Part shown: one piece after another, positions 296 to 59,705 of the stretch
Layout of the letters: every line of letters starts with the position of its first letter
Position numbering within the stretch: position 1 is the stretch's first letter
Assembly: GCA_027030245.1 (NCBI GenBank)
Contig: JALVFE010000010.1
Coordinates: forward strand, 1-64,000
Reading direction: 5' to 3'
Source: Melioribacteraceae bacterium
Lineage (GTDB): Bacteria > Bacteroidota > Ignavibacteria > Ignavibacteriales > Melioribacteraceae
DNA: 64,000 bases
Made by a program: the position numbers and the translations under genes
The notes under the pieces: generated by a model
The model's input: only the letters and a program-made list of their open reading frames with translations
The model's database searches: none
Told to the model about the DNA's origin: nothing

Positions 296-413
296 GAACC
301 CTCAACCTTTTGATCAAAAGTGAATGGGAAATATTAATGGAATCGGAATTTTAGTGCACCCGGAAGGATTCCTCCATAGGAGTCCCTTTGGGAGAACCCT
401 CAACCTTCTGATC
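296..413 (-). repeat. Two partial copies of the tRNA-Arg 3' half
   Basis: Positions 296-315 repeat, with one mismatch, the stretch of the tRNA-Arg gene running from the anticodon arm to the T arm. Positions 354-371 plus 394-413 repeat the acceptor/T-arm end and the same inner stretch, but are split by a 22-bp insert at 372-393. Both copies are followed by the same short sequence (tgatcaaaagt). They look like remnants of duplications or integrations at the tRNA 3' end. No integrase gene is visible nearby, so the integration origin is inference. Confidence 0.75.
372..393. repeat. 22-bp double mini-hairpin insert in a tRNA fragment
   Basis: The insert consists of two adjacent 11-nt hairpins, CTCCATAGGAG and TCCCTTTGGGA, each with a 4-bp stem and a 3-nt loop. 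Removing it restores the uninterrupted tRNA sequence GGATTCGAACCC, so the boundaries are exact. The first hairpin resembles the CTCCGTAGGAG core of the REP units near the RAYT gene; the second recurs inside decayed CRISPR repeats near 59683. Confidence 0.75.
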
Positions 414-608
414 AAAAGTAAATTAAAAGTTGTTGTGATTAGTAATATAAATTCAGCTTTCTTGGAGATATCCCCTTTGAATTATTTGACTATTGATACA
501 ATAATTTTCTTCCCAAAATCGAAAAGGTGTGTTACAGCGAATGGCATAGATATAAAGAGCCCGAATTTAAAACCTTGTAAACTACTATTATATAAGGAAG
601 TAATCTTG

Positions 609-682
<74 letters not shown>

Positions 683-2250: not shown

Positions 2251-2421
2251 TTTCACCCCTCCAGGGTTTTATTTTATTTCGTGTTACATTTGCTATAAAT
2301 ATTTCACGCCTACGGCGTTTATGAATTAAAACAATTGCTCAATTAAAATTTTTCCTCACTCCGTAGGAGTGAAATATTTATAATATTCATATCGCCCAAA
2401 ACACCGGAACTCCGTAGGAGT
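2251..2421. repeat. REP palindrome cluster downstream of RAYT gene
   Basis: Contains CCCTCCAGGG, CGCCTACGGCG and two copies of ACTCCGTAGGAGT (around 2358 and 2409), joined by conserved spacer DNA (tttattttatttcgtgtt, ctataaatatttcac). The same block recurs at 2931-3053 and 3367-3437. These are typical REP units of the kind mobilised by RAYT transposases. Confidence 0.8.
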
Positions 2422-2433
2422 GACACGATTTCT

Positions 2434-2904
2434 TTATTTATCATTATCATTAAAGTTGAATAGATATTTTTCATCGTAATTAATTTTATATTTTTCCAAA
2501 AATTTTTGATATTCTTCTTTGAATGTTCTTCGTTTATGATGCTCTTTCTGATTATTAATGTATTTTATTATGTTCGGTAATTGTGACTCAGAATACGAAA
2601 ATGCACCAAAACCCTCTTGCCAACTGAATTTCCCTTTAGTGTATTTTTTGTTGTTAATGTATTTAGTAGAATTGTTTTTAATGTCTCTAACCAAATCTGA
2701 TAAAGAGATATTCGGTTTAATATTCAGTAGAATATGTATATGATCTTTGTAACCGTTTATTGCCAGCAGTTTTTGGTTTTTGTTGGTGATTATTCCGGTT
2801 ATGTATTTAAATAAATCGGTTTCCCAGGATTTTTGAATAATCCCGTGCCGTCCTTTGACAGCAAATATAAGGTGAATATAAATTTTTGAAAATGTGTTAG
2901 GCAT
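2434..2904 (-). CDS. REP-associated tyrosine transposase (IS200/IS605-like TnpA)
   Basis: A 156-residue single-domain Y1 HUH nuclease. The HUH motif is DHIHIL (His55 and His57), and the catalytic tyrosine is most likely Tyr115 in IIKYINNQKEHH. The N-terminus (FSKIYIHLIFAVKGR) and WQEGFGAFSYS are typical of the family. It would nick single-stranded DNA at hairpins through a phosphotyrosine link. It has no partner tnpB and no IS200-type ends, but is flanked by REP clusters on both sides. That makes it a RAYT, a domesticated relative, rather than an autonomous insertion sequence. The frame is intact. It sits between a response regulator and its probable kinase. Confidence 0.9.
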   Translation of the reverse strand: MPNTFSKIYIHLIFAVKGRHGIIQKSWETDLFKYITGIITNKNQKLLAINGYKDHIHILLNIKPNISLSDLVRDIKNNSTKYINNKKYTKGKFSWQEGFGAFSYSESQLPNIIKYINNQKEHHKRRTFKEEYQKFLEKYKINYDEKYLFNFNDNDK

Positions 2905-2930
2905 AATATTTTTTATTATACTTTATGTTT

Positions 2931-3437
2931 CACCCCTCCGGGGTTTTATTTTATTTGTGTTTCATTTGCTATAAATATTTCACGCCTACGGCGTTTTTGA
3001 ATTAACTCAACTATTAAATTAAAATATATCATCACTCCGTAGGAGTGAAATGTATAATCAAAGTTATCATTCTAAATTTTATTTAGATATAACATTAGTT
3101 ACAAAATTAATTATTTATTTTCAAAAGTTTCAAAACTATAAGATCATAATCGCTACGTATTGTTTCTATTATAAATTATCTATACATAACGAAAATTAAT
3201 TCGCTTGATAAGAATTAATACAACTCCGTAGGAGTGGTATATTTATAATATCCAAATCCACCCCAAATAACAGAACTCCGTAGGAGTGAAACATAAATCA
3301 AAGCCATTATTCTAATTTATTTTAGATATAACATTAATCGCATAATTAATTTTTTATATTTAATTGTTTCACCCGGACGGGGTTTTATTTTATTTCGTGT
3401 TACATTTGCTATAAATATTTCACGCCTACGGCGTTTT
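2931..3437. repeat. REP palindrome cluster upstream of RAYT gene
   Basis: Three REP stretches: 2931-3053 (CCCCTCCGGGG at 2933, CGCCTACGGCG at 2983, then ACTCCGTAGGAGT), 3220-3290 (two CTCCGTAGGAG hairpins) and 3367-3437 (a second copy of the first block). The copies share spacer DNA and orientation, so they look like block duplications. No gene lies within 2905-3538. Confidence 0.8.
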
Positions 3438-3566: not shown

Positions 3567-3811
3567 CCCCAATCCTTTGATAAGTCCTCCCATTCGGGAT
3601 TTGCCGATTCTATTAAATTTATTTTCCATTCCCGATGCCAATTTTTTAATTGTTTCTCTCTCCTAATTGCCTGTTGTACATCTGTAAATATTTCGTAATA
3701 AACCAATTTTGTTAAATTATATTTTTTTGAAAATCCTTCTATAATTCCTTTTTTATGTTCATACATTCTTCGTACTAAATTGTTCGTAAAGCCTATATAT
3801 AACGTTTTCAC
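3539..3811 (-). CDS. GIY-YIG nuclease domain protein with atypical start
   Basis: The stretch TLYIGFTNNLVRRMYEHK and the C-terminal EKQLKNWHREWKINLIE match small stand-alone GIY-YIG endonuclease-like proteins. The coordinates use the GTG at 3811, but the family's first motif half (EYYVYIITN) is encoded in frame upstream to about 3850, where there is no ATG, GTG or TTG. Only an ATT at 3851-3853 follows the stop codon. So either a rare start is used or the original start has been lost. The last seven residues (DAETSSA) and the stop are made of a dispersed palindromic repeat. The role of these proteins is not established. Confidence 0.7.
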   Translation of the reverse strand: MKTLYIGFTNNLVRRMYEHKKGIIEGFSKKYNLTKLVYYEIFTDVQQAIRREKQLKNWHREWKINLIESANPEWEDLSKDWGIDAETSSA

Positions 3812-3899
3812 TTTATTAGTAATTATGTAGACATAATATTCTTTTATTGAAATGTTTAAATATTAGCTCAAAGTTTAATTACCTTAAAGGTAATATTGT

Positions 3900-54341: not shown

Positions 54342-57300
54342 GAACTAATCGGACTATATTAGAATTGAGACAAGTAATTGCCTTATACCGTTTCTGAAAC
54401 GGTATAAGAACTAATCGGACTATATTAGAATTGAGACTAACAATCAATTCTAAATTAACTGTAAAAACTGCAGCCAGAACTAATCGGACTATATTAGAAT
54501 TGAGACTTAAAAATGGAAAAGAAAATCATCAAACAAATCAGAACTAATCGGACTATATTAGAATTGAGACAGCAAACTGCGGATCGAAAAGCGTTCCGTT
54601 CCGCAAGAACTAATCGGACTATATTAGAATTGAGACTCCCCAATGCGTATCTCTTACCGCGGCTCCGTCTTTGAACTAATCGGACTATATTAGAATTGAG
54701 ACACGGATCCGAATTGTAAGGATATTCAGCGCCGTCCAGAACTAATCGGACTATATTAGAATTGAGACCTCGTTAAGTTTCGATAAGTGAAGCGCATATT
54801 GGAACTAATCGGACTATATTAGAATTGAGACGCGTTTTGTAAATTTGACATGGGCAATGCTCCTAGAACTAATCGGACTATATTAGAATTGAGACAATTC
54901 TTCAAGCTTTTCGTCCGCTTCCGGATTATCGGAGAACTAATCGGACTATATTAGAATTGAGACCTTTATATTGTCTCCATCTATAAATCTTGCTTTTTCT
55001 GAACTAATCGGACTATATTAGAATTGAGACTGATTCTGCGTTAGCATATCTCTTCTCCTTTCTTTTGGAACTAATCGGACTATATTAGAATTGAGACCGC
55101 AAAGTAAAGGATATTTTATTTAATATCCTTTACGAACTAATCGGACTATATTAGAATTGAGACACGTCTTCTAAAGATAAAAGCGAATTTTTTAATAAAG
55201 AACTAATCGGACTATATTAGAATTGAGACCGAATTTATTCTTGTCTAAAATTAAGACTTTTGACCGAACTAATCGGACTATATTAGAATTGAGACATATC
55301 CTTTACCTTCTTTGCTCTATTAAATAGAGCAAAGAGAACTAATCGGACTATATTAGAATTGAGACCAGGTTTGTACTTTCATCTTTCCCTCCTTTAATTA
55401 AGAACTAATCGGACTATATTAGAATTGAGACTATTTACAATCCTTCGGGTTTCGCTTATATTTGTGAACTAATCGGACTATATTAGAATTGAGACTCACA
55501 ATCTATCCATTCGCCTTCTAATCCGGCATCTTCAGAACTAATCGGACTATATTAGAATTGAGACCGGCTTTCAAATCCCCAAAGTTCATTACAAAATTTG
55601 AACTAATCGGACTATATTAGAATTGAGACTCATTTTGACTGAACATAACTTCAGCCAAAATGCTGGGAACTAATCGGACTATATTAGAATTGAGACAATG
55701 TATAAATTGCTCATAAGCAAAGAAGAGAAACGAGAACTAATCGGACTATATTAGAATTGAGACTCCATCAAGCACATTGTTCTGCTTAATAGACTCAAGA
55801 ACTAATCGGACTATATTAGAATTGAGACTCGAAGCATGTTAGAAACTAATAAATAATGGCATAGAACTAATCGGACTATATTAGAATTGAGACAGTCTTT
55901 TTTGCTTTTTGGTGCATCTTTTGGATAAGGAACTAATCGGACTATATTAGAATTGAGACTCTTTCCATTTAGCGTCAATAAAACCGGATAATCAAGTGGA
56001 ACTAATCGGACTATATTAGAATTGAGACGTCATTAATAAAATCAACAAAAGCAGATATTTTTTGGAACTAATCGGACTATATTAGAATTGAGACGGTGAT
56101 TCCATATTTCTTATTTTCATTGCTCCTCCAGAACTAATCGGACTATATTAGAATTGAGACGGCGGAGAGCAAAAATTAAAGGGCTTCTTTATGAAGGAAC
56201 TAATCGGACTATATTAGAATTGAGACTCAGGTTCTTAACCATTTCTTGTATTTTACGATATTCGAACTAATCGGACTATATTAGAATTGAGACCTTTCTT
56301 CCGCTTTCGCTCTTGCCTCGTCCGAAGCTTGAACTAATCGGACTATATTAGAATTGAGACGACAAGTTTCTAATCCATATTATATTGTCTTTAAGGAACT
56401 AATCGGACTATATTAGAATTGAGACCGGCCACAAATAGACAAAACCCGCTCAACCGGGCGGGAACTAATCGGACTATATTAGAATTGAGACTGTATTTTT
56501 AGATATTCCTTCACCAAATTTTGGTGTTCAGAACTAATCGGACTATATTAGAATTGAGACTTACTTTTTTCTTTATTTTCTTTTTACTCGATTTGGCGAG
56601 AACTAATCGGACTATATTAGAATTGAGACTAAGTGCTTCAATGCAGTGAATATGATTCCTTGAGTGAACTAATCGGACTATATTAGAATTGAGACGATTA
56701 TATTTCTTACAGTAGTGTAGGAAAGGTACGGAACTAATCGGACTATATTAGAATTGAGACGCGAAGTGAGCGATATGCCTTGTAGGGTCAAAAAAGAGAA
56801 CTAATCGGACTATATTAGAATTGAGACTGTTTTTAATGCTCACCTTATCACCAACTTTGAAAATTGGGAACTAATCGGACTATATTAGAATTGAGACTGT
56901 TGCCATCTTCGTCGAACTCTAACTTTTCGAGATCGAAGAACTAATCGGACTATATTAGAATTGAGACTCTTGGTAAGTTGAGAAATTGATAAACCGATGA
57001 ATGGAACTAATCGGACTATATTAGAATTGAGACCTTCGGAAGCCGTTTTGTTGTATTTTGCGACCAATGAACTAATCGGACTATATTAGAATTGAGACTG
57101 CTTTTGCACGGTTACCCGCGTTCTTACTTCCACGAACTAATCGGACTATATTAGAATTGAGACTAGTAGTTTCCTTTTCAACTATTTTTAAATACCGTTG
57201 AACTAATCGGACTATATTAGAATTGAGACTAAGATAAAAAACATTATACCAAAGTTTTGTTTCACAGAACTAATCGGACTATATTAGAATTGAGACTCCA

Positions 57301-59093
57301 CTTAATTATATCTAGTGGAAACTTAATTAAAGAAGAACTAATCGGACTATATTAGAATTGAGACAGAATTAATCGTTGATAACATTTCTTCCTTTTTCTT
57401 GGAACTAATCGGACTATATTAGAATTGAGACAATGTTGCCTATTTTGATGTGTGGTATTTTGTTCCGGAACTAATCGGACTATATTAGAATTGAGACAGA
57501 GATAATTAAAGATATTGAAGATAAAAAGAATGAGTACTAATCGGACTATATTAGAATTGAGACGGGGGAAGATGTATTTTAATATAAGTTCATCTTCCGT
57601 ACTAATCGGACTATATTAGAATTGAGACTTTTTCAGAACAATGTTTCTTAATTCTTGCCTTGTTAGTACTAATCGGACTATATTAGAATTGAGACTAAGT
57701 TAAAATTTTCATTTTCTTCTCCTTTTAATTGTACTAATCGGACTATATTAGAATTGAGACAATTGTTCTCTATAATGAAGTAAATTAGCGAATTCAGTAC
57801 TAATCGGACTATATTAGAATTGAGACTCGTAAGATGTGAATTTAATACTATCATTAAGAAAGGGTACTAATCGGACTATATTAGAATTGAGACTTATTTT
57901 TATTGATAAATAAGTTAATTGCGATTACAAGTACTAATCGGACTATATTAGAATTGAGACTCGTATGAAGTAAAACGAATTGAATCATTGAGAAAATCGT
58001 ACTAATCGGACTATATTAGAATTGAGACCAGAAATAGTTGAACTAAATAACTTTGCCGATCTTCAGTACTAATCGGACTATATTATAATTGAGACTTTCA
58101 TTTTACCCTCCTTGCCGAATTTTTTGCCCGGTGTACTAATCGGACTATAATAGAATTGAAACTCGTCTTCAACTCGCTCAATCCAAATTTGATAGTCATT
58201 GTACTAATCGGACTATAATAGAATTGAAACGCAACGTCTTTCTTCGCAACTGTGACGCCGTTGCTTGCGTACTAATCGGACTATAATAGAATTGAAACGG
58301 TTTAATTTCTCATATTTCAAAACTTTTGGAGTCAGTACTAATCGGACTATAATAGAATTGAAACTAATTACTCCTTGAAATTTGTTATAGAATTAGTTAG
58401 TACTAATCGGACTATAATAGAATTGAAACTTTGTTTCCATTATAAATCTTCCTTGTTTGTTGTTGTACTAATCGGACTATAATAGAATTGAAACCTGGTG
58501 TTGGGCTGCCCCATGTTTCTCCATATAATTAGCGTACTAATCGGACTATAATAGAATTGAAACTACGATTTTTCGATCGCGGCGTTTACCACCGCCTTAA
58601 GTACTAATCGGACTATAATAGAATTGAAACAATTTAGAAATTTTTGTGCCGTCCGGCCGATCCACGGTACTAATCGGACTATAATAGAATTGAAACCAAC
58701 TTAGGGAGATTTCCCAACAATCTTGTAAGCTCTGTACTAATCGGACTATAATAGAATTGAAACTACGATTTTTCGATCGCGGCGTTTACCACCGCCTTAA
58801 GTACTAATCGGACTATAATAGAATTGAAACCCATTTTAATATCAATCGGAGTACCTTCGAGGATTTGGTACTAATCGGACTATAATAGAATTGAAACAGC
58901 TATAAACTTATCAAGTCCATCCGGCTCTGGAGATTGTACTAATCGGACTATATTAGAATTGAAACTCAATTATCCAGACCGACAAAACACCTTAGAATTA
59001 TGTACTAATCGGACTATATTAGAATTGAAACAGTATTTTTTCTATTTAAGACTAAAAATTAAATATAGTACTAATCGGACTATATTAGAATTG
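54342..59093 (+). CRISPR. CRISPR array, 71 complete repeats plus one truncated repeat
   Basis: Thirty-base repeats of the form G(A/T)ACTAATCGGACTATA..AGAATTGA(G/A)AC, with spacers of 33-40 nt (mostly 35-37). The 3' end matches the ATTGAAAC-type 5' handle of crRNAs in type I-B and III systems, so transcription runs left to right. The repeats fall in ordered blocks. Repeats 1-48 (54342-57497) begin GAAC and end GAGAC. Repeats 49-57 begin GTAC and end GAGAC. Repeats 58-69 (from 58133) read TATAATAG and end GAAAC. Repeats 70-71 read TATATTAG and end GAAAC. The truncated 72nd keeps 26 bases. Spacers at 58564 and 58764 are identical. cas6 lies 4 kb downstream. Confidence 0.99.
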
Positions 59094-59705
59094 TCCCGAT
59101 ACGACCCGATAAATAGAACGAATCGGGATCCCGACATAGCACTATTTATCGCCTTGAAGTCGGGAAGACGGGTTAGTGCTTGTTTGATTTATGATAGGAA
59201 AATATTTCTGTACTAATCGGACTATGCCGCAGGCATCGCTTCGGGATATTAGAATTGTCGAGCCGGAAGGCTATTTAGGATTCGGCGAGATCCCGACATA
59301 GCACTACAATCGCCTTGACGTCGGGAAAACGGGTTGGTGCCCGTTTGATGAAAGTGTTCTTTGCTAATCGGACTATGCCGCAGGCATCCCTTTGGTTATT
59401 AGAATTGTCGAGCCGGAAGGCTATTTAGGATTCGGCGAGATCCCGACATAGTACTTCTTATCGCCTAGAAGTCGGGTTGGTGCCCGTTTGATTTAATATG
59501 TGAAATTGTTCATTACTAATCGGACTATGCCAAAGCAGAATTGTCGAGCCGGAAGGCTGTTTAGGATTCGGCGAGATCCCGACATCGTACTACTTATCGC
59601 CTTGACGTCGGGAAGACGGGTTGGTGCCCGTTTGATTTATTATGTGAAATTGTTCTTTGCTAATCGGACTATGCCGCAGGCATCCCTTTGGGATATTAGA
59701 ATTGT
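59094..59705 (+). repeat. Decayed CRISPR-repeat modules of 142-152 bp
   Basis: Units begin at about 59068, 59210, 59361, 59513 and 59657. Each starts with the left part of the CRISPR repeat (CTAATCGGACTAT). In units 2, 3 and 5 this is followed by a double mini-hairpin and then the right part (ATTAGAATTG). The next ~100 bp are shared between units and fold: AGCCGGAAGGCT, TCCCGAC...GTCGGGA and ACGGG-TTGGTG-CCCGT. The fifth unit ends after the repeat. No reading frame is convincing. Confidence 0.85.

Follow-up and report, generated by a model that had tools for sequence, protein, structure and literature searches.

The 22-bp double hairpin that interrupts a partial tRNA-Arg gene in the DNA analyzed here is a real element, and it is conserved in shape more than in sequence. 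The best single account of it, which we put forward tentatively and to which we give somewhat less than an even chance, is that of a double-hairpin insertion held in surplus tRNA copies, where it would protect these copies against GIY-YIG enzymes. The window, by which we mean the whole analyzed stretch of 64,000 nucleotides, is the start of contig C10 of genome G000, a 3.8-Mb draft in 40 contigs. A reading made from the sequence alone had placed an insert at 372-393 (plus strand) of this window. Direct reading and a genome-wide pattern match show it to consist of CTCCATAGGAG and TCCCTTTGGGA and to lie precisely at the junction GGATTC|GAACC, which corresponds to a tRNA-Arg T-loop read on its reverse strand. 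The interrupted sequence is a partial tRNA-Arg(ACG) copy on the minus strand (354-413), which extends from the anticodon side to the 3' end (tRNA positions 38-57 and 58-75). Its intact parent, the tRNA-Arg(ACG) at 608-682 (minus strand; ARAGORN and Rfam), has an uninterrupted T-loop with GGATTCGAACC at the corresponding position, and comparison with this parent confirms that excision of the 22 bp restores the tRNA-Arg sequence without a duplication, as had been proposed. A second tRNA-Arg copy (minus strand; tRNA positions 38-57), whose edges are approximately 264-315, is decayed and carries a damaged insert that the sequence-only reading had not listed. Rfam searches of the window and of loci L009 and L010 returned tRNAs only.

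The other fully paired insert of the window is located in a CRISPR repeat. The CRISPR array has uninterrupted 30-bp repeats from 54342 to 59097 (plus strand), and surplus insert-bearing units follow in tandem downstream of the last uninterrupted repeat, at spacings of 162, 150 and 136. The last of these units contains a fully paired 22-bp double hairpin at 59672-59693 (plus strand), composed of TGCCGCAGGCA and TCCCTTTGGGA, which splits GGACTA|TATTAG of the repeat at the place indicated in the sequence-only reading; the boundary may shift by one base because there is a T at both ends. The decayed inserts described in that reading at 59225-59246 and 59376-59395 (both plus strand) are indeed damaged double hairpins in surplus repeat units, and a previously unlisted remnant in a third unit was recognized by eye at 59529-59538 (plus strand). 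The stated design, exactly 22 bp made up of two 11-nt hairpins with a 4-bp stem and a 3-nt loop, was found at both 372-393 and 59672-59693. Since the CRISPR inserts are tandem copies of one unit, they represent one event and not four. The terminal ‘spacers’ of this array (59090-59660) consist of long units that recur and contain strong inverted repeats (CCCGAC..GTCGGG), unlike ordinary spacers. Elsewhere in the window, a Y1 (REP-type) transposase gene (match at 2548-2892, minus strand) lies amid single CC..GG-style mini-hairpins (CGCCTACGGCG, CTCCGTAGGAG and CCCCTCCGGGG) that extend over 2307-3433 and that are a possible source pool for the hairpins. A small GIY-YIG gene is present at 3617-3838 (minus strand), 3 kb from the tRNA-Arg and with no tRNA adjoining it.

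To describe the hairpins we used 63 distinct inserts whose outer pairs had been left free by the search pattern. The four outer pairs were of the Watson-Crick type in 61, 62, 62 and 62 of these inserts, whereas the corresponding maxima in 2000 shuffles were 61, 37, 54 and 39. The first outer pair is nearly invariant and therefore uninformative alone; the other three covary strongly. The constancy of the CC..GG cores is not a finding, because the pattern demanded these cores. Full pairing was observed at 91 of 101 T-loop sites. The stems are almost always TCCC, TTCC, TGCC or CTCC, and the loops are variable, being mostly GAA, AAA, GCA or ATA in hairpin 1 and TTC, TTT or TAT in hairpin 2. At locus L082 there are runs that we interpret as two and as three doublets. 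Between loops 1 and 2 there is partial complementarity (0.50 versus 0.35 in shuffled inserts, for a set that includes chance matches), and it is therefore possible that the unit forms a single long imperfect hairpin instead of two.

Within the window alone, chance might seem a sufficient explanation: adjacent 4-bp/3-nt hairpins of any sequence occurred 6 times (gap 0-2) against a null mean of 7.1, and TCCCTTTGGGA with at most one mismatch was found twice against 1.18 expected. However, genome-wide controls reject the chance reading, the enrichment being limited to the CC..GG-core class. This class had 12 matches in G000 compared to one in the reversed control, and 11 of the 12 were fully paired (the exception being C23:78225). 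The context-free CC..GG pattern gave 352 matches against 14 in the reversed control and was present in 54 of 97 genomes (G000 included); with the TTC..GA context of the T-loop there were 110 forward matches against 3 control matches, in 28 of the 97 genomes (G000 included). Doublets of this class are thus far more frequent than in the reversed control when counted genome-wide, and neither of the two refuting outcomes proposed with the sequence-only reading is borne out. An assembly artefact could be suspected from the position of several G000 copies near contig ends (C10, C16 and C17), but doublets are also found in the one-contig genome G071 and in the cultured strain Marinoscillum furvescens DSM 4134. 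Together with the reversed controls and the stem covariation, this leaves chance or artefact with a negligible probability.

Most fully paired doublets of G000 share a single position. The pattern CCNNNGGNNNNCCNNNGG matched 24 places in this genome (15 in the reversed control), 11 of which are fully paired doublets as judged by pairing and flanks. Ten of the 11 separate C56 from G57 in the T-loops of spare tRNA pieces (C10:372, C16:602069, C16:646808, C17:205, C30:26324, C30:26445, C30:246481, C35:4979, C38:109620 and C38:110000), and the eleventh is the CRISPR copy. An intact tRNA adjoins seven of the ten (Arg, Pro, Ser twice, Ser, Lys twice). The stretches retrieved around C16:602069 and C30:246481 contained none, and C17:205 is at a contig start. 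Two further G000 doublets are damaged, namely C10:59376 and C32:42583, the latter between two palindromes. The usual array consists of an intact tRNA followed by tandem units (approximately 67 to 160 bp long among the listed arrays). Each unit comprises a tRNA 3' end with a variable start point, the T-loop doublet and often a terminator-like hairpin; in G071, 11 such units follow tRNA-Thr. There is also a mirror form, in which 5' partial copies upstream of an intact tRNA have hairpins in the D-loop (L058, L346, L326) or in the anticodon loop (L339). Other hairpins in T, anticodon and D loops are likewise found in spare copies of G000 and related genomes, and in the tRNA-Val and tRNA-Pro copies of G058 the anticodon stem-loop is replaced by CTCCGATATAATCGGAG and TCCCGATTTGATCGGGA.

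The spare copies were surveyed by reading flanks of about 1.2 kb around the tRNA positions obtained from Rfam searches (42 in G000, 43 in G071 and 43 in G058). An initial count in G000 and G071 yielded 48 3' copies, with exactly 22 nt inserted in 27 of them, and a more sensitive survey of the same two genomes found 51 spare-copy T-loops interrupted and 2 intact. G000 contributed 18 interrupted T-loops and both intact ones, which belong to tRNA-Met (L314) and have an altered anticodon arm. G071 contributed 33 interrupted and no intact T-loops; 18 of its pieces end short of the T-loop, and two further copies that the survey labelled as having ‘no T’ bear the insert on direct reading. Some of the interrupted copies have no clean doublet: tRNA-Asp copies hold one hairpin, the tRNA-Met of G071 has a 44-nt insert, and one tRNA-Met piece (L300) has an 8-nt insert with no clear hairpin. 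In G058, which was doublet-free in the context-free pattern search, none of the spare-copy T-loops was interrupted (all 8 of the 3' copies were T-loop-intact) and 21 5' pieces were present. As spare copies without T-loop inserts exist, the rule that such copies are capped is genome-specific. None of the 85 ARAGORN tRNAs of G000 and G071 bears an insert, partly by construction because an interrupted tRNA is hard to call. The possibility that the insert is a removable intron of a needed tRNA is unsupported, as the interrupted pieces are partial or lie beside an intact neighbor where examined.

The strongest sign of a precise, duplication-free insertion, mobility itself aside, comes from a palindrome that is found both filled and uninterrupted. 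Uninterrupted copies of the dispersed palindrome GATTCCCACTTYCGTGGGAATGAC number 27 in G086, 11 in G060 and 14 in G091 (at most 2 mismatches; 24 of the 52 are exact), and one retrieved copy per genome (L276, L273 and L282) has 22 bp at the same point without a target duplication. Empty sites, the occurrence of which had been proposed as a check, are thus represented by the parent tRNAs, by the 52 palindrome copies in three genomes and by the T-loop-intact arrays of G058. A long target duplication was also considered and rejected, since the sequence before the insert is not repeated after it. Other doublets are located in terminator-like loops (L272, L285). We also examined 31 fully paired sites that do not belong to the main T-loop class (they include a few tRNA variants); here the dinucleotide abutting the insert, when read outward, was GA on 27 and AA on 15 of the 62 sides. 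Siting at palindrome tips is weakly indicated, with 5 of 38 flank pairs scoring at least 7 compared to 2.5% of the null. Marked copies of tRNA-Arg(ACG) are present in G001 (26-nt insert) and G009; no marked copy was seen in G040, which belongs to the same genus as G009, and the entire copy is absent there. The notion of a distinct, duplication-free mini-insertion is therefore well supported by the controls and the uninterrupted sites. However, the pattern in G000 does not look like that of an element landing randomly in tRNA and CRISPR sequences: the sites are spare tRNA pieces and surplus CRISPR units, and array amplification multiplies the insert.

A scan for GGTTC..GA plus the cores, with one genome per species, gave at least 119 stretches, and a viral scan gave 39. 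Among the at least 181 matches listed from the species and viral scans, at least 34, in at least 21 stretches, had all four outer pairs. Nineteen of the 21 listed fully paired stretches are from Bacteroidota/Bacteroidetes, Ignavibacteriota, Balneolaceae, Marinimicrobia or candidate division LCP-89, and the remaining two are viral contigs; many other listed matches, largely from GC-rich lineages, showed incomplete pairing. Among the matches listed, the double-hairpin element is so far limited to one group of phyla. The arrays of M. furvescens DSM 4134 contained 4 and 8 matches (L102 and L103). In L103, a second hairpin pair of about 20 bp is present in the spacer of the array unit (around 1552-1580 and in later units), and it is missing from the spacer after one intact tRNA there. 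The same locus has a terminator loop with tandem CACGGCAAGTGGCG-like inserts and, at approximately 219-376, a tRNA-Leu-like gene interrupted by a perfect inverted repeat, about 30 nt long (TTTACGATAAATC..GATTTATCGTAAA). In three Moranbacteria loci (L153, L164, L197) the pattern match is a single long palindrome (AACCTAGGGTCGACCCTAGGTT or similar) with GGTTC and GAA flanks and no double hairpin.

Partial tRNA copies are associated with small GIY-YIG genes. With two long-frame matches per genome set aside, a tRNA start is found no more than 1 kb away from 9 of the 12 GIY-YIG matches counted in G000, in contrast to the gene at 3617-3838 of the window, and from 8 of the 18 in G071. In G000, G071 and G058 combined, with copies judged from the more sensitive survey, 12 of the 13 tRNAs that have a small GIY-YIG gene within 1 kb also have partial copies, compared to 17 of the 115 others (Fisher p-value = 2.5e-8). 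Conversely, such a gene is lacking within 1 kb of 17 of the 29 tRNAs that have copies, and the tRNA-Arg array of the window likewise has none adjacent to it, the nearest match being 3 kb off. Tandem units of a GIY-YIG gene and its adjoining tRNA are present at L009, L030, L066, L301 and L307. At L066, five GIY-YIG matches follow tRNA-Asp, 315 bp apart, and the listed frame ends in GGRPD and a stop codon, read from the tRNA-Asp copy and its hairpin. At all five loci (L301 corresponds to G000:C26:1-1600) the GIY-YIG frames are in tandem with partial tRNA copies, and the C-terminus and stop codon of the listed frames are tRNA-derived. The proteins are short and score weakly, below the cut-off, against the group I intron endonuclease model, and a search with one array protein gave no phage match.

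A possible role of these genes is suggested by phage SegB, a GIY-YIG enzyme that cuts within tRNA genes, has the motif RAWTSGAAC in 23 of 83 sites, is required for the tandem amplification of tRNA-Tyr plus segB, and still cuts motif-disrupted substrates, but less (PMC13096335). By our own comparison, TSGAAC is the reverse strand of the T-loop sequence GTTCGA (the terms ‘T-loop’ and ‘T-arm’ are absent from the text of PMC13096335), and the doublet falls inside this motif. We infer that the 22-bp unit is mobile and is put in place by some inserting machinery: it would be a minimal double-hairpin insertion element of Bacteroidota/Ignavibacteriota-type bacteria that enters DNA without target duplication and favors TC|GA-like sites. 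In G000 it would be retained in surplus copies, that is, in partial tRNA genes (mostly in tandem beside an intact tRNA) and surplus terminal CRISPR units. The tRNA arrays would result from tandem amplification beside tRNA genes, probably driven at least in part by the small GIY-YIG homing-type endonucleases encoded in many arrays. Since the insert splits the T-loop at TTC|GA, within the core of the motif cut by SegB, a marked spare copy would escape cutting and hence be stable, and the essential tRNA would have to stay unmarked. A SegB-like specificity is only putative here because the GIY-YIG proteins are short and weak matches, one of them without a phage match.

Several observations weigh against protection as the complete story. 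G058 has GIY-YIG genes beside three tRNAs, yet the TTCGAA T-loop of its tRNA-Pro array is intact in all four copies; the intact tRNA retains the motif, and its escape from cutting is not accounted for by the model; SegB keeps some activity on motif-disrupted DNA; the CRISPR site and the dispersed palindrome are without TTC|GA; and there are arrays that lack GIY-YIG genes. The location in surplus copies fits simple tolerance equally well, with selection purging insertions from the sole working gene. A broader version, in which a structure-directed process caps T, anticodon or D loops of surplus copies of structured-RNA genes with hairpins that are conserved in shape only and serve as marks of cut resistance against tRNA-homing GIY-YIG enzymes, seems to us rather unlikely. 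A similarly low probability is given to an RNA intermediate. In this model the doublet would insert into the loops of abundantly transcribed structured RNAs (tRNA precursors, CRISPR RNA, terminator hairpins); reverse transcription together with local recombination would carry the product back into DNA, and partial copies would remain next to the original. In its favor, the doublets are located in genes for structured RNAs and at the tips of hairpins (T, D and anticodon loops, the CRISPR repeat, terminators), the partial copies adjoin the intact gene, and cyanobacterial small dispersed repeats (SDRs) have reportedly been proposed to act through RNA. The 11 imperfect stem pairs, counted on the tRNA-sense strand in the Bacteroidota/Ignavibacteriota-type lineage, comprise 5 G-U, 1 A-C and 5 other pairs (one case, L267, not being a tRNA), which hints weakly at base pairing in RNA. 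However, this G-U count is tiny, and the repetition of whole terminator-containing units with near-identical spacers is explicable by plain DNA amplification.

It is more doubtful still that the hairpins are favored as an RNA shield which keeps co-transcribed tRNA pieces and surplus CRISPR repeats from tRNA- and CRISPR-processing enzymes, with no DNA endonuclease needed. This would account jointly for the tRNA and CRISPR cases and for the different loops (T, anticodon, D) that are capped among copies, but it leaves the doublet-bearing dispersed palindromes and terminators as well as the exact TTC|GA site unexplained, and the T-loops of G058 are intact in 8 of 8 3' copies. Both RNA-based models rank behind the GIY-YIG model. 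Single-strand transposition of the tiny hairpins by a Y1 (REP-associated tyrosine) transposase is improbable. Such transposition is not known to leave a target duplication, Y1 genes are common (86 of the 97 genomes), and the one in the window at 2548-2892 lies among CC..GG mini-hairpins. Nevertheless, T-loop doublets are present in 4 of the 11 genomes without a Y1 match, which may reflect draft gaps or past presence, and in 24 of the 86 with one, so that no association was detected (p-value = 0.72). A Y1 transposase as a necessary partner is thus unsupported, and a REP/REPIN-type link to this transposase was not found across the 97 genomes.

A 22-bp insert that is conserved mainly in shape and that occupies, across many genera, a single bond of repeats derived from tRNA genes offers a clean system to study how the smallest insertions arise and persist. 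It also ties together two loose ends, namely the tandem tRNA pieces and the small orphan GIY-YIG genes that both occur next to tRNA genes. Should the link to GIY-YIG genes be true, the insert would act as a simple mark in the DNA that counters homing enzymes, an idea that is testable in vitro. For annotation, it accounts for broken tRNA pieces and for tRNA-derived C-termini of GIY-YIG proteins (e.g. GGRPD). Literature searches for double hairpins in T-loops, for hairpins and palindromic repeats at tRNA genes in Bacteroidetes, for GC clusters, for partial tRNA copies and for GIY-YIG genes by tRNA genes in Bacteroidetes returned no related account, and we make no claim of absence from print beyond these searches.

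The element works like the double-hairpin elements (DHE) and repetitive hairpin-forming elements of mitochondria or like the cyanobacterial SDR, a likeness of behavior that may or may not extend to family membership. As in the DHE, which has reportedly also been described from Allomyces, two adjacent hairpins have stems kept by covariation, and dispersed copies at unrelated sites have uninterrupted counterparts. A study on sponge mitochondria describes DHE as pairs of neighboring short hairpins, in which the stems are conserved and the loops vary, and considers them potentially mobile (PMC2800124). The present unit differs in being exactly 22 bp long and in residing on bacterial chromosomes, where it is kept mainly in tandem arrays, at a single bond in the T-loops of spare tRNA copies; because it is found in bacterial genomes, we say that it works like a DHE without classing it as one. 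The SDR of Nostoc and relatives (Elhai et al. 2008) are said to measure 21-27 nt, to share a secondary structure with compensatory changes, and to occur as nested copies and inside a short palindrome. Size, shared structure with compensatory changes, nesting and palindrome insertion are thus similar, but our element belongs to another lineage, is linked with tRNA copies and in part with GIY-YIG genes, and is likened to SDR by description and not by sequence. Repeated tRNA 3' ends are also found in tandem downstream of E. coli tyrT, where they are not known to be interrupted, unlike those described here, and REP palindromes are likewise small and intergenic but longer than the 22-bp doublet. 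Finally, some of the arrays resemble SegB and the free-standing GIY-YIG homing endonucleases by phage tRNA genes in that a GIY-YIG gene adjoins tRNA genes, tRNA and GIY-YIG gene are amplified in tandem, and the motif overlaps the T-loop (PMC13096335); unlike these phage systems, they reside on a bacterial chromosome and combine partial, interrupted tRNA copies with short putative GIY-YIG proteins known by sequence.
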